64,000 nt of DNA from Candidatus Gastranaerophilales bacterium. Its GTDB lineage: Bacteria; Cyanobacteriota; Vampirovibrionia; Gastranaerophilales; Gastranaerophilaceae. Shown here one piece after another: positions 22,217 through 30,940 of the stretch (within the stretch, counting starts at the first letter, position 1; every line of letters starts with the position of its first letter). The position numbers were made by a program, and so were the translations under genes. The notes beneath the pieces are model-generated. The model was given only the letters and a program-made list of their open reading frames with translations, did no database searches and was not told the DNA's origin. Location: positions 1 to 64,000 of the forward strand of contig CALUPY010000001.1 of NCBI GenBank assembly GCA_944322755.1. The letters are read 5' to 3'.

Positions 22217-22750
22217 ATGAATATGAAAGAAATGAACGGGTTTACACTTGCTGAAGTTCTTGTAACAATAATGGTTATCGGGGTTTTATGCGTGATGATT
22301 ATTCCTCCATTAATGACAAATACTGCCCAGCAGGAACATATTACAGTCTATAAAAAGGCTGTTGCTATTCTTGGACATGCCATTGAACAGAGTTATGCAT
22401 TAGACGGAGAAGATGCATCATGTTTTACGGGTGCAAAGTTTGTACATTTAATGACACGCAAACTTAACTTGGCAACTCATGTCGGAAATACGGTTTATAC
22501 AGCTGACGGCATTAAATTTACCGTACAGGATTCAGGCGGAGATTGCACAACAGACGGTCCGAATTCAAAAATTGTCTGTGCTGTAGTTGACGTTGATACA
22601 AATGGAGACAAAGGCCCCAATAAAACAACAGAAGCAGTGAACTCTGTTTATGACCAATTCACTATCTCCGTATATCCAAGAAGAGTCGAACCGGCAACTC
22701 AGGCTCAAAGAGATGTTCTATATATGACAGGAAGACACAGAAACAGATAA
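22217..22750 (+). CDS. Type IV pilin-like / pseudopilin protein
   Basis: The N-terminus MNMKEMNGFTLAEVLVTIMVIGVL is a class III prepilin signal: a short basic leader, Gly8-Phe9 cleavage site, Glu at position 5 of the mature protein, then a hydrophobic helix. The 177-residue length suits a type IV pilin or type II secretion pseudopilin. The mature domain has paired cysteines and a DTNGDKGPN loop resembling the calcium-binding loop of GspG-like major pseudopilins. It would be processed by a prepilin peptidase and methylated, neither encoded here. A good AGGAGA site precedes it. Converges on the GT9 gene with only seven bases between stops. Confidence 0.85.
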   Translation: MNMKEMNGFTLAEVLVTIMVIGVLCVMIIPPLMTNTAQQEHITVYKKAVAILGHAIEQSYALDGEDASCFTGAKFVHLMTRKLNLATHVGNTVYTADGIKFTVQDSGGDCTTDGPNSKIVCAVVDVDTNGDKGPNKTTEAVNSVYDQFTISVYPRRVEPATQAQRDVLYMTGRHRNR

Positions 22751-26950: not shown

Positions 26951-27829
26951 TTATTTATAATTTATTTCATAATAGCCGTCATTTATATAAAAAGTCATTG
27001 TAAATAGCTCGCCTTTATACGCTTTTGGCGGGGGGTAGTACTGTGGAAGACTCATAAACATATAATATACAGCATCGTTCATGCTTTTATTGTCAGAAAG
27101 TTTTGAAAAATTTCTGTTAACAAGTTTACCTGTAGAATCAATGGAAAAACTGACTTCACATCGACCTTCACCTTTTACTGACGTTACCTTTAAATTTGAA
27201 AACAGGGCACTCCTCAATGAAACTTTATAGTTATTCAGTTCCTCTTCTGCAGCTTTTTGTGCTTGCGTTTTTGATGGAACAGGAACTTTAGTTTTATGTT
27301 CTTTGACCTGTGTTTTGACAGATGATGTATTTATTTTGGGTTCCGCTTTTTTGACCGGAGCTATTGCCTTTGGCAGCTCAGTTTTGACTGATGTCTGTGT
27401 CTTCGTATCCGGTTGAACTATTACATTCTTTATTATCCTTATTACCTGCTGCTGTGAAGTATTCAGCGGTTGTTCATTTTTTTTTTGCTCTGCCGATATC
27501 TCAGGTGCCGCAGACTCATCATTCCATATCGTGTCTATATCAGGAATCAATATTTTTTCTGTTGATTGTTGAGTCGTTTTTTTCGTATTTTGTACAGGTG
27601 TATCATTCCAGGCAAAAATCCATACAAATATAGAAAGAAGTATACATAATACAAAAATACTCCAGGAAATTATTTCTTCCTTGTTTGCTGTGATTTTTGG
27701 CAAGTATACATCATTTTTTATAGCAGAAGCAGCTTTTATTCCTGCAATTTCGATAAATTCATTGTTTCCGCAATCACAGTAATCAGGTTTTGTCTCAAAT
27801 ATTTGACCGCATTCTGTACATTTATACAT
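26951..27829 (-). CDS. Zinc-ribbon/transmembrane/TonB-like protein
   Basis: The 292-residue protein has three parts. Residues 1-27 form a cytoplasmic zinc ribbon (CTEC ... CDCGN). One transmembrane segment lies at about 55-75 (SWSIFVLCILLSIFVWIFAW). A long Lys/Pro/Gln linker then leads to a TonB C-terminal-like domain at about 205-290 (RSALFSNLKVTSVKGEGRCEVSFSIDSTGKL). The order is unusual because TonB proteins normally have nothing of note before the membrane anchor. It is the last gene of a four-gene operon, 49 bases after the preceding TonB-like gene. It could link a cytoplasmic event to the periplasm or outer membrane, which is inference. Confidence 0.75.
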   Translation of the reverse strand: MYKCTECGQIFETKPDYCDCGNNEFIEIAGIKAASAIKNDVYLPKITANKEEIISWSIFVLCILLSIFVWIFAWNDTPVQNTKKTTQQSTEKILIPDIDTIWNDESAAPEISAEQKKNEQPLNTSQQQVIRIIKNVIVQPDTKTQTSVKTELPKAIAPVKKAEPKINTSSVKTQVKEHKTKVPVPSKTQAQKAAEEELNNYKVSLRSALFSNLKVTSVKGEGRCEVSFSIDSTGKLVNRNFSKLSDNKSMNDAVYYMFMSLPQYYPPPKAYKGELFTMTFYINDGYYEINYK

Positions 27830-27878
27830 ATATTCTGCCTCTTATTCGCCTGACAGGATTATTTTATCATAAAAAATC

Positions 27879-28643
27879 TCATTTTATTCTTTCATAATCA
27901 GAATAATCGGACGGTGTCGAATATCTTGAAGTCCAAGCAATGGTAAATCCTCCATTTACATTGGTTATTACTCTCTTTGATTTTTCAGGAAATTTCAAGA
28001 TACTTTGTCCCTGATAGCTGAGCAGCACCGGTTTTATTTTTCTTACTGCCATATCTGTATACTGAGGGTTCTTTGACCAAACTTTTAAGTTCGAGATGCG
28101 CCCGAACTTATCCACAGTAAAAGAAAATTCAAATCTGGTACCTACAGGAGCAGCCAGCACAACATCTCTCATAACCTGATTTTGCAGATTGCTGCGCCAT
28201 TCATTCCAGGCAATAATTTCCTCTTCTTCCGGAGTCAGCTTTTTAACCTTTTGAGGTTGTTGTGTTTGTACTTTTTGTTTTATGACAGGTTCTTGCTGCT
28301 TAATTTCTTTTGATTCCTGTTGTTTAGGTGTACTTGAAGTTTTTTGGGACTGCGGAACTTTAGTTTCCGGCTGTTTTTGAACAATAAATCTCGTTTCAGT
28401 AATTATCTTAGGCTCCTGTTTTTGGGGAGCAATCACCGTTTCTGTGTTTTGGGCATATTTTTTTACTGTTTCAGCCTGTTGTTTTAATGTATTTTGAACC
28501 GGAGCAGGAGGATTCTCCGTTATTACAGAAAGTTTAAAGTCTGCACTTTCAGTCCGAAACGGCTTATGCATATCCGGTTTTGTTAGGACAACAGCAATAG
28601 TTACAGCAATTATTAAGGCTATAAACACTTTAAAAAAATTCAT
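27879..28643 (-). CDS. TonB-like periplasm-spanning protein
   Basis: Residues 4-22 are a hydrophobic anchor. They are followed by a 110-residue linker rich in Gln, Pro and Lys, then a C-terminal domain (about 140-245) with FEFSFTVDKFGRISNLKVW and an AVRKIKPVLL helix, the pattern of TonB C-terminal domains. The protein has 254 residues. Its ATG overlaps the stop of the upstream FHA/membrane gene (TAATG), indicating translational coupling. There is no ExbB/ExbD pair nearby, so it may be structural rather than an energy transducer for TonB-dependent receptors. Confidence 0.75.
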   Translation of the reverse strand: MNFFKVFIALIIAVTIAVVLTKPDMHKPFRTESADFKLSVITENPPAPVQNTLKQQAETVKKYAQNTETVIAPQKQEPKIITETRFIVQKQPETKVPQSQKTSSTPKQQESKEIKQQEPVIKQKVQTQQPQKVKKLTPEEEEIIAWNEWRSNLQNQVMRDVVLAAPVGTRFEFSFTVDKFGRISNLKVWSKNPQYTDMAVRKIKPVLLSYQGQSILKFPEKSKRVITNVNGGFTIAWTSRYSTPSDYSDYERIK

Positions 28644-30256
28644 TAATCTTTATCCAGCTTTGAGTTAATTTCGTCTAAAACATAAATATCGAATTTTGTC
28701 TGGCTAAGCATGTATGTTTCTGCAATAAGCAGAGCTGTCGGAACAAGCGCAGCAACCAGACTGAGAAACAGACCCTGTAAATCTCCGCCGATTTCTGTCA
28801 TAAAATAGGAAATATTCATTGAAAATTCAATAAATATAATTGCAACAGCAATAACCAGCGAACGGATTCTTTCAGAATTAAGCTTTCTGACTGCCTGAAG
28901 CCCGTATATAGTGACACCATGATGTTGATAATCACTAAAACCGTCATTTTTTATTACATCTGATGCCTGAATTTTTTTGCTGCAGAAGAATGCATTTACA
29001 AAAGTGAAAAACGCAAAAATAATCAGAAAAGTAGCAAGTACAAGAAAAACCGGGCTCAAACGCAAGCCTGAAATTCTGACCCATCCTGCGGCTTCAGGGA
29101 AACACATAGCAAGAGTATTAGATACCCCGTATGCAAGAAACGGCGCGGTCAGTATACCTATGACTATTTCTCCTACTGATTTTAACTGTAAATTAAATAT
29201 TTTGTCCTTTATATATCTGATTTTTGAAGAACTGAGACAATTTATGTATCTTTCAATCCATAGCTGATATTCTTTTATTATTGTCTCAAAATCCTCACGG
29301 TATTCGTATTTGTCGAGTTCTTTTGACATTTCGGTGTTACTGCTTTTAAAGTAGCCGCTTGCAATTGCAAGACTAGCCATAACACCGGTAAAGAGCAACG
29401 AGACAATAGCCGCAAACAATGTCATTTTGTTCATGTTCATATAGTATATGAGGTTTATAGCATAGAATGCGACTATAAAAAGACCCGATGTAATCAGCAT
29501 AAATTTTTCGGCAATAGAGGAAGCAGTTGAAACCTGTTTGTTTATTTTATTCTGCAAATACAAATACACACCCTGCTTCAAAACAAGACAAATACCAAAA
29601 ATAAGGATTGTGAAAATAACAAGTGCCTTAATATTTGTCGGAAGGTGAAGATAATTTTTTGATTCAACGATTGAGAGTCCCGTAAGGTAGTTTGATACTC
29701 CAAAAGCACACACAAAAGAACTGAAAAGCAGTGCTATATGGAGAAAAATTCCTGTTTTATAATTCATTGATATCTTATTCTTCAGGTCATTTATTACATA
29801 TCCTACCTGTTTAATTATAGAAACGCGTGCTTTTTCTATATCGGATTTTTGTTTTTCGATTTTAACCCGAACTGCAGCATTTGAATCTTTTCCGTACAAA
29901 CCGCTCATTTCCTCTTGGGTCAAATCTTCTTCTGCTATCATAGATATGGTTCTTTGCGAAGAAGCAGGGGCTTGTGCAAGTTTTATACTTATATATTCAT
30001 CTGTGCCATCTAAAATTAGTTTACTGATTTTATCGATTCTAAGCTTTTGAAAAGTCTGACCTTTAAAGAGCACTTTGTTGTTTGCAAAGGTGTTTACAAG
30101 AGTACAAACATTTTCAGCCTGATTATACTCAAGCGTCAAAAACAGTTCGAAATCCAGATGGAGCTGAAAATCACAGTTGTCAGACGTTCCAATGTTTATT
30201 ACTTCTTTGTCCTGAAATTCTTTTGTAATTTGAGATGATGTAATTATTACAGACAT
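28643..30256 (-). CDS. FHA-like domain fused to polytopic membrane protein
   Basis: The 537-residue protein begins with a beta-rich domain (residues 1-95) whose INIGTSDNCDFQLHL and following strands look like a degenerate FHA domain of the kind seen in secretion-system proteins; the Arg and Ser of phosphothreonine-binding FHA are not evident. After a charged linker come about eight hydrophobic segments, with a cytoplasmic loop in the middle (KELDKYEYREDFETIIKEY). I do not recognise the family. It is cotranscribed with the VWA gene upstream (nine bases) and coupled by TAATG to the TonB-like gene downstream. It would be the membrane platform of this operon. Confidence 0.6.
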   Translation of the reverse strand: MSVIITSSQITKEFQDKEVINIGTSDNCDFQLHLDFELFLTLEYNQAENVCTLVNTFANNKVLFKGQTFQKLRIDKISKLILDGTDEYISIKLAQAPASSQRTISMIAEEDLTQEEMSGLYGKDSNAAVRVKIEKQKSDIEKARVSIIKQVGYVINDLKNKISMNYKTGIFLHIALLFSSFVCAFGVSNYLTGLSIVESKNYLHLPTNIKALVIFTILIFGICLVLKQGVYLYLQNKINKQVSTASSIAEKFMLITSGLFIVAFYAINLIYYMNMNKMTLFAAIVSLLFTGVMASLAIASGYFKSSNTEMSKELDKYEYREDFETIIKEYQLWIERYINCLSSSKIRYIKDKIFNLQLKSVGEIVIGILTAPFLAYGVSNTLAMCFPEAAGWVRISGLRLSPVFLVLATFLIIFAFFTFVNAFFCSKKIQASDVIKNDGFSDYQHHGVTIYGLQAVRKLNSERIRSLVIAVAIIFIEFSMNISYFMTEIGGDLQGLFLSLVAALVPTALLIAETYMLSQTKFDIYVLDEINSKLDKD

Positions 30257-30265
30257 ATTTACCTC

Positions 30266-30940
30266 TTATCTTCCGATTGCTTTTAAAAACTCTCTTGACG
30301 CTCTGTCCGCGTTCTGAGCAGGTGACACAATGAGTTTTCTTTCACCAAGAACTGGTGTAAGTTTTTCTTTTACCAAATCAAGTTTTTCCGGATGTGCGTA
30401 TACAAACATCATAGCTATATCCGGAGCATATTTTTTTACCGAAGAAACATTATCTGGTAACGTATCCCAGTTGATTTGTTTTTGGATATTACCTTCATTT
30501 TCAAGATCCCCGATAACAACAACTGCAGGAGTATAGCCTTCTGCCTTCATAGTCAGACAGTGAGAGAAGGCTTTCTTTATAGCTTCGCCATAAGCAGTTC
30601 CGTATTCTTCCGGATTATACTGCGTAAAAGCCTCCATAGCTTTCTGTATACCGCTGTTGTTGTGAGGTGTTCCTTCATAGATAAGATATGAAGTTTCAGA
30701 GACTTTAAGAATTTTTATTTTGTCCTCCGGATCCAGCAATGCACAAAGCTGTTTTAGATATTTTTTCTGTTCTGTTAATTCTTCCTGATTTGAGGCAGAA
30801 GAATCAACAACAAAAATAACGGCAGCAGGTTTGAAGTCATCTATTTTAATATTTTTCAAACCTCTGTATAATAACTTTGTCACTACTGCAAGTATAAGAA
30901 TAATTATTCCTAATATTATAATTCTTCTGTTTAATTTCAC
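30266..30940 (-). CDS. Membrane-anchored VWA-domain protein
   Basis: One N-terminal transmembrane helix (residues 6-24) is followed by a von Willebrand A domain. The MIDAS metal motif DxSxS is present as Asp46, Ser48 and Ser50 (FVVDSSAS), with a later Thr (GTAYGEAI) and Asp (VIGDLENEG). At 224 residues it is essentially a bare VWA domain that should face the periplasm. It starts with GTG at 30938-30940 after GAGGGAAAAGG. It is the first gene of the VWA/FHA/TonB operon. VWA proteins commonly mediate protein-protein contacts in multi-subunit complexes. Confidence 0.8.
   Translation of the reverse strand: MKLNRRIIILGIIILILAVVTKLLYRGLKNIKIDDFKPAAVIFVVDSSASNQEELTEQKKYLKQLCALLDPEDKIKILKVSETSYLIYEGTPHNNSGIQKAMEAFTQYNPEEYGTAYGEAIKKAFSHCLTMKAEGYTPAVVVIGDLENEGNIQKQINWDTLPDNVSSVKKYAPDIAMMFVYAHPEKLDLVKEKLTPVLGERKLIVSPAQNADRASREFLKAIGR

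Follow-up and report, generated by a model that had tools for sequence, protein, structure and literature searches.

A conserved VWA–FHA–TonB gene cluster of Gastranaerophilaceae, a candidate trans-envelope coupling system

The four-gene cluster

The window, meaning the whole stretch of 64,000 nucleotides analyzed here, comes from a Candidatus Gastranaerophilales genome of 2.19 Mb with a completeness of 99.97%. The closest named homologues are in genomes of Candidatus Gastranaerophilales and Melainabacteria, which are non-photosynthetic relatives of cyanobacteria inferred to be diderm (PMC3787301, PMC4040986). Four open reading frames at 26951-30940 all lie on the minus strand, in the order VWA, FHA8TM, TonB1, ZnTonB. 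VWA and FHA8TM are spaced by 9 bp, the stop codon of FHA8TM overlaps the ATG of TonB1 (TAATG), and a gap of 49 bp separates TonB1 from ZnTonB. A promoter scan gave hits no more numerous than in shuffled sequence. The features are these:

30266..30940, minus: VWA protein, 224 aa, GTG start, N-terminal membrane anchor and periplasmic von Willebrand A domain (Pfam VWA_2, 7.7e-9)
30506..30805, minus: MIDAS metal site of the VWA domain, D46-x-S48-x-S50, T115, D145 (alignment of members)
28643..30256, minus: FHA8TM, 537 aa, degenerate FHA domain joined to a membrane protein of eight helices (AlphaFold model, pLDDT 83)
29972..30256, minus: FHA-like domain, residues 1-95, cytoplasmic (PDB fold match)
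28712..29167, minus: TM5-TM8 core of FHA8TM, residues 364-515 (conservation in 38 sequences)
27879..28643, minus: TonB1, 254 aa, membrane anchor, KPxMHK motif, Gln/Pro/Lys-rich linker, TonB-like C-terminal domain (AlphaFold and PDB folds)
28563..28637, minus: TonB1 membrane helix and membrane-proximal KPxMHK motif (recurs in small peptides of related loci)
27942..28232, minus: TonB1 C-terminal TonB-like domain, residues 138-234 (AlphaFold model, PDB fold matches)
26951..27829, minus: ZnTonB, 292 aa, cytoplasmic zinc ribbon, membrane helix, linker, TonB C-terminal domain (TonB_2, 3.1e-5)
27752..27829, minus: ZnTonB zinc ribbon CxxC...CxCGN, C4, C7, C18, C20 (invariant in 19/19)
27524..27547, minus: IPDIDxIW motif directly after the ZnTonB membrane helix, with invariant Trp102
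26966..27232, minus: ZnTonB C-terminal TonB domain, residues 200-288 (TonB_2, profile matches)

In comparison with a congener, the dN/dS ratios are 0.037 (VWA), 0.041 (FHA8TM), 0.081 (TonB1), and 0.147 (ZnTonB). These values indicate strong purifying selection on all four genes, with the tightest constraint on the membrane pair VWA and FHA8TM and the fastest evolution in the two TonB-like arms.

The original prediction, made from the letters of the window, was that the cluster looks like no known system, and searches of Pfam, NCBIfam, PADLOC, PHROG, and PDB bear this out in that no match assigns it to one. For anti-phage defence, PADLOC matches to the cluster reach E = 0.04 only, and the PHROGs search with the cluster proteins gave nothing meaningful. 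A literature search found no paper on the VWA–FHA8TM–TonB1–ZnTonB cluster.

The membrane pair VWA and FHA8TM

The MIDAS pattern DxSxS...T...D is complete in 20 of the 21 aligned VWA members, in agreement with the original prediction of an anchored periplasmic VWA domain having this site intact. The Pfam search also returned a very weak match of VWA to TssR.

FHA8TM has no Pfam family, and no PDB relative was found by sequence. Its AlphaFold model compared with PDB identifies the N-terminal beta-sandwich as an FHA fold, with probability 1.00 and a TM score of 0.79 to 6ccd, while for the long helices Foldseek finds no meaningful PDB match. Hydropathy and the model agree on eight transmembrane helices, so that the fusion of an FHA-like domain to an eight-helix membrane protein stands as it was first proposed. 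The domain shares the beta-sandwich of the phosphothreonine-binding FHA domains but not their binding residues: the canonical Gly-Arg and Ser-x-x-His are missing in 38/38 FHA8TM members, and because of this the domain probably binds protein without phosphothreonine. The same absence leaves unsupported the suggestion that the cluster has cytoplasmic sensing modules in the phospho-sensing sense.

Genus g50 encodes the FHA-like domain in a separate gene of 99 aa adjoining an efflux cluster of MarR, HlyD-like, EmrB-like, and TolC-like genes (L086:6539-6838, L087:5798-6097, L088:6021-6320, L089:5957-6256, L090:342-641, and L091:6387-6686). Most g50 genomes with this stand-alone gene do not have the 8-TM protein.

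Conservation within FHA8TM is very uneven. Over the 38 sequences, near-invariant positions number 73/152 in TM5-8, 8/130 in TM1-4, and 5/95 in the FHA domain. The invariant polar residues of TM5-8 include T370, S379, T381, E477, N481, S483, T507, and E513, 2 of which (E477 and E513) are membrane glutamates. We take TM5-8 to be the likely functional core of the protein, possibly an ion or conformational pathway. TM1-4 and TM5-8 have an internal similarity of P = 8.5e-4 and have GVSN and N-x-x-Y motifs in common, which looks like an old 4+4 duplication. FHA8TM resembles none of ExbB, TolQ, and MotA in sequence or in fold, and ExbB homology of either half was rejected, there being none by hhalign against the genome's own ExbB as a single sequence.

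The two TonB-like arms

ZnTonB is the more easily recognized of the arms. TonB_2 is found at the C-terminus in 18/19 members, a Helicobacter TonB profile aligns with E = 0.008, and the C-terminal domain matches the genome's own TonB with P = 1.6e-7. Against PDB, the zinc ribbon gave short zinc-finger and designed-protein matches only, which we take as chance. TonB1 has no Pfam match and the sequence identity of its C-terminal domain is low. The AlphaFold model of that domain has the alpha-beta-beta-alpha-beta TonB fold, and its top 9 matches among PDB folds are without exception C-terminal domains of TonB or TonB homologues (FusB, HasB), at modest E values, the best being 0.012. Because direct profile alignment of TonB1 with ZnTonB is weak (probability 8%, E = 0.0043), the identity of TonB1 rests on the predicted fold. 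With that qualification, the expectation of 2 TonB-like proteins, one of them having a zinc ribbon, is confirmed.

The His in the membrane helix of the genome's canonical TonB is missing from the membrane helices of both arms, except that 2 TonB1 members have one toward the segment's end. The lack of this residue fits a motor other than ExbBD.

Some related loci encode small membrane peptides of about 46-77 aa that have the membrane helix of TonB1 and its KPxMHK, located upstream of F4, a gene described below, or between TonB1 and ZnTonB. Examples in the direction of the cluster are at L095:6973-7293, L096:6883-7232, and L098:6548-6897; those upstream of F4 are in L103, L105, L106, L109-L111, and L124. 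Some of these loci have another small membrane protein after the peptide.

Distribution and gene order in relatives

VWA and FHA8TM co-occur exactly, in the same 27 of 59 relatives. Within the family of the source genome the cluster is present in 26 of 36 genomes and absent from 10. One further cluster lies outside the family in G051:C152 (L107), a fragmentary genome 66% complete, and is possibly a mis-binned contig or a transfer. Profile searches found matches in 138 of 289 class genomes and in 128 of 386 phylum genomes, and among the matches listed all are in this same family, Gastranaerophilaceae.

Gene order was counted over 37 FHA8TM loci. VWA is directly upstream of FHA8TM in 33 of them, TonB1 directly downstream in 32, and ZnTonB is recognized in about 29. 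On these counts, the recurrence of the order is far above chance, and the 4 genes named as coupled in the original prediction are joined by strand, by spacing, and by conservation of order across genomes. F4 is directly upstream of the cluster in 24/37 loci and missing from 13/37, including the window locus. Flanking genes vary between genera, and adjacency to Rex is found in the genus of the window only.

Departures from the standard arrangement give an indication of which parts are central. In 2 congeners (L042:7657-7854 and L093), the first cluster is without TonB1 and has a shortened ZnTonB, and VWA and FHA8TM are kept; a second cluster elsewhere in each has both arms. Because the arms are lost or shortened in this way, the core of the cluster looks like VWA plus FHA8TM. 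There are also 4 second copies without an anchored VWA, and all of those genomes carry VWA in the first cluster.

A secreted VWA gene (sVWA) adjoins the cluster in 12 of the 37 loci. The idea that it stands in for a missing or degenerate anchored VWA was promising in the first 29 loci and failed in 37, where 8 of the 12 sVWA loci also hold the anchored VWA. Some other neighbors were seen in passing. At L120:178-3939, 4 tandem secreted VWA genes lie on the opposite strand, divergent to a second cluster. One second-copy cluster has a gene with an MlaD domain (lipid transport) directly after ZnTonB (L058:9315-10199). In the window, 22217-22750 encodes a 177-aa protein with a type IV pilin-like N-terminal signal (GFTLAEVLVTIMVIGVL), and similar genes (family F9) are near the cluster in several relatives.

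F4, the canonical ton operon, and receptors

F4 is a secreted protein in which a distantly VirB10/TrbI-like region leads into a glycine-zipper hairpin, with a strand region at the end. TrbI matches are found in 11 of 15 F4 members with a best E of 4.7e-6, although the scores seen fall below the Pfam cut-off, as in the L060 copy with 23.7 bits against a cut-off of 35. VirB10 was not found with F4 by solved-structure profile search or by single-sequence search, and PDB gave 2 matches only, at E = 0.19 (SlyB, a glycine zipper) and E = 0.48. The likeness of F4 to TrbI/VirB10 is, at this level of sequence matching, a distant resemblance only. F4 shares with VirB10/TrbI of type IV secretion the weak TrbI-like domain, the hairpin, and the final strand region, but has a secretion signal in place of an inner-membrane anchor. 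No other type IV secretion gene was recognized beside F4 in the cluster neighborhoods.

F4-like genes are found in 59/59 relatives. The longest F4 of the window genome is at C1:157220-158386, on the same contig as the cluster and about 127 kb from it. The canonical operon of this genome has the order F4-like, tonB, exbB, exbD, exbD (L073:12903-16660, on G000:C8), and comparing the positions of F4 and ExbD shows the same arrangement in most relatives, throughout the order. An F4-like protein may generally serve TonB as an outer-membrane partner in this group. Since F4 adjoins both of the TonB-type clusters, we infer from gene neighborhood that it is the best candidate partner of the arms.

The original prediction noted that no ExbB or ExbD is nearby. 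That is correct for the locus, but the genome carries both elsewhere, on contig C8 only, where they accompany the canonical tonB; C4 has further MotA/ExbB copies. ExbD is in 57/59 relatives, including every well-assembled one. No TonB-dependent receptor plug domain is in the window genome, and only 11/59 relatives have one. With plug domains so scarce and ExbD so widespread, the TonB arms of the cluster probably do not serve the usual receptors. This absence of receptors, the ton operon, F4, sVWA, the KPxMHK peptides, and the focus of conservation on TM5-8 were not part of the original prediction.

Comparison with known systems

TonB, Tol, and Agl-Glt share one type of proton-driven inner-membrane motor. 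The cluster resembles TonB-ExbB-ExbD and TolA-TolQ-TolR in its arms, single-anchor proteins in which one membrane helix leads through a flexible linker to a C-terminal domain of TonB type (by sequence for ZnTonB, by predicted fold for TonB1), and in pairing a multi-helix inner-membrane partner with a single-anchor periplasmic partner. It differs in having no ExbB/TolQ or ExbD/TolR and instead an unrelated 8-TM protein and VWA, and in having 2 arms in a genome with no receptor.

By analogy, the closest working system is Agl-Glt, which has an FHA module and 2 TonB-like envelope-spanning arms, as the cluster does. GltJ carries a zinc ribbon and a GYF domain, and 0/19 ZnTonB members have a GYF match, though the zinc ribbon is present. 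GltG has FHA and TonB on one protein, whereas the FHA domain of the cluster is fused to the 8-TM protein and there is an extra VWA. No AglRQS (TolQR-type) motor or other Glt gene was recognized in the cluster neighborhoods. In Myxococcus, a TolQR-type motor drives the TonB-like GltG, which includes the FHA domain, and GltJ (PMC3169522, PMC5349195); because motor, domain combination, and gene set differ, we do not place the cluster in Agl-Glt.

Within the phylum, Anabaena SjdR is a TonB-like protein with a role in septal peptidoglycan (PMC8262864), and Anabaena TonB2 has an envelope rather than a transport role (PMC8597729). The cluster is likened to these by description, as TonB-like proteins of the same phylum with envelope and not transport roles; no VWA/FHA8TM cluster is reported for them.

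Function of the cluster

The 4 proteins very probably form one functional complex. Our preferred reading of it, to which we give a little under even confidence, is a lineage-specific trans-envelope machine coupling energy or force, a transducer of the TonB/TolA type with a different inner-membrane unit. The conserved order, the co-occurrence, the domain folds, the conservation and membrane glutamates of TM5-8, and the 4+4 repeat would all fit this, and we also count for it the presence of F4 at both the cluster and the ton operon, the scarcity of receptors, and the arm helices without the TonB His. On the other side are the absence of ExbB/TolQ/MotA similarity in FHA8TM, the loci from which F4 is missing and its sub-cut-off TrbI matches, the failure to find VirB10 with F4, and the low identity of the TonB1 C-terminal domain.

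Several other explanations compete with this one. A static or regulated tether, linking inner membrane, peptidoglycan, and outer membrane so as to hold or shape the envelope without energy coupling, in the manner of Tol-Pal or of SjdR, would suit the non-transport roles of SjdR (PMC8262864) and TonB2 (PMC8597729) in related cyanobacteria, the lack of a TonB-dependent receptor, and the lack of recognizable motor homology. A passive scaffold has no obvious need, though, for 73/152 near-invariant membrane positions with buried acidic residues, and a cluster absent from 10/36 family genomes is not an essential part of the envelope; we regard the tether as unlikely, without dismissing it. Somewhat less likely still is a signalling device in which VWA and the TonB-like domains act as sensors for the periplasm or outer membrane and FHA and the zinc ribbon report to the cytoplasm. 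It is true that 2 of the 4 proteins carry cytoplasmic protein-binding modules, and that in g50 FHA occurs by itself, as a cytosolic protein. The FHA domain lacks the phosphothreonine-binding residues, however, and no conserved kinase, phosphatase, or regulator is beside the cluster, the Rex adjacency being confined to one genus. Of the original proposal of a signalling or force-coupling assembly, the coupled envelope assembly therefore stands and phospho-sensing is probably wrong.

That the arms are TonB paralogues of the ordinary kind, driven in trans by the products of the genome's ExbB and 2 ExbD genes, with FHA8TM and VWA merely docking them, we hold to be improbable. ExbD is available in every well-assembled relative and the C-terminal domain of ZnTonB is clearly TonB-related, but ExbBD is present regardless of the cluster, the arm helices do not have the His of the genome's TonB, and the arms have conserved membrane-proximal motifs of their own. 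It is very improbable that the cluster is a divergent part of some known machine for secretion or motility, whether Agl-Glt gliding, the flagellum, or type IV or type VI secretion. The points in its favor are that GltG joins FHA and TonB_C (PMC3169522), that GltJ is TonB-like (PMC5349195), that F4 is distantly TrbI-like, and that VWA has its very weak TssR match. Against these, no TolQR-type motor, type IV secretion ATPase, or type VI secretion gene was recognized beside the cluster, and the FHA and TonB domains are on separate polypeptides. A flagellar link was considered and rejected, FliG being found in 10 of the 26 family genomes that have the cluster versus 7 of the 10 that do not, and so not tracking it. 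Homology to a known secretion or motility system, which the original prediction had set as a check on itself, was not found, and its other check, a four-gene order not kept in relatives, also went in its favor, since the order is conserved.

Returning to the coupling machine, its working may be imagined as follows. FHA8TM would be the inner-membrane platform, in which the invariant polar and acidic residues of TM5-8 would couple ion flow to movement; that the platform is an ion-driven motor is a tentative part of the scheme. VWA would sit on the periplasmic face of FHA8TM, roughly in the place of ExbD, and make a metal-dependent protein contact. TonB1 might dock by KPxMHK and ZnTonB by IPDIDxIW, both arms then crossing the peptidoglycan and either gating an F4 assembly in the outer membrane or exerting a pull on it. 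On whether F4 is the outer-membrane partner our opinion is evenly balanced. The FHA domain and the zinc ribbon would be cytoplasmic protein-binding modules controlling assembly. Energy source and output alike are putative. The most specific form of the proposal is a new class of transducer confined to Gastranaerophilaceae, with an ion-coupled 8-TM platform unrelated to ExbB, TolQ, or MotA, VWA in place of ExbD, and 2 arms driven onto a VirB10-like outer-membrane assembly, in bacteria most of which are without TonB-dependent receptors, and in that full form we think it unlikely.

The cluster appears, from its genes and their predicted folds, to be conserved, previously undescribed, and lineage-specific, and of a TonB-type trans-envelope kind with a putative function. 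If the coupling reading is true, TonB arms can couple to another platform and to another outer-membrane target. It would make testable the role of TonB proteins in bacteria that have no receptors, for which the F4 family is a concrete candidate.
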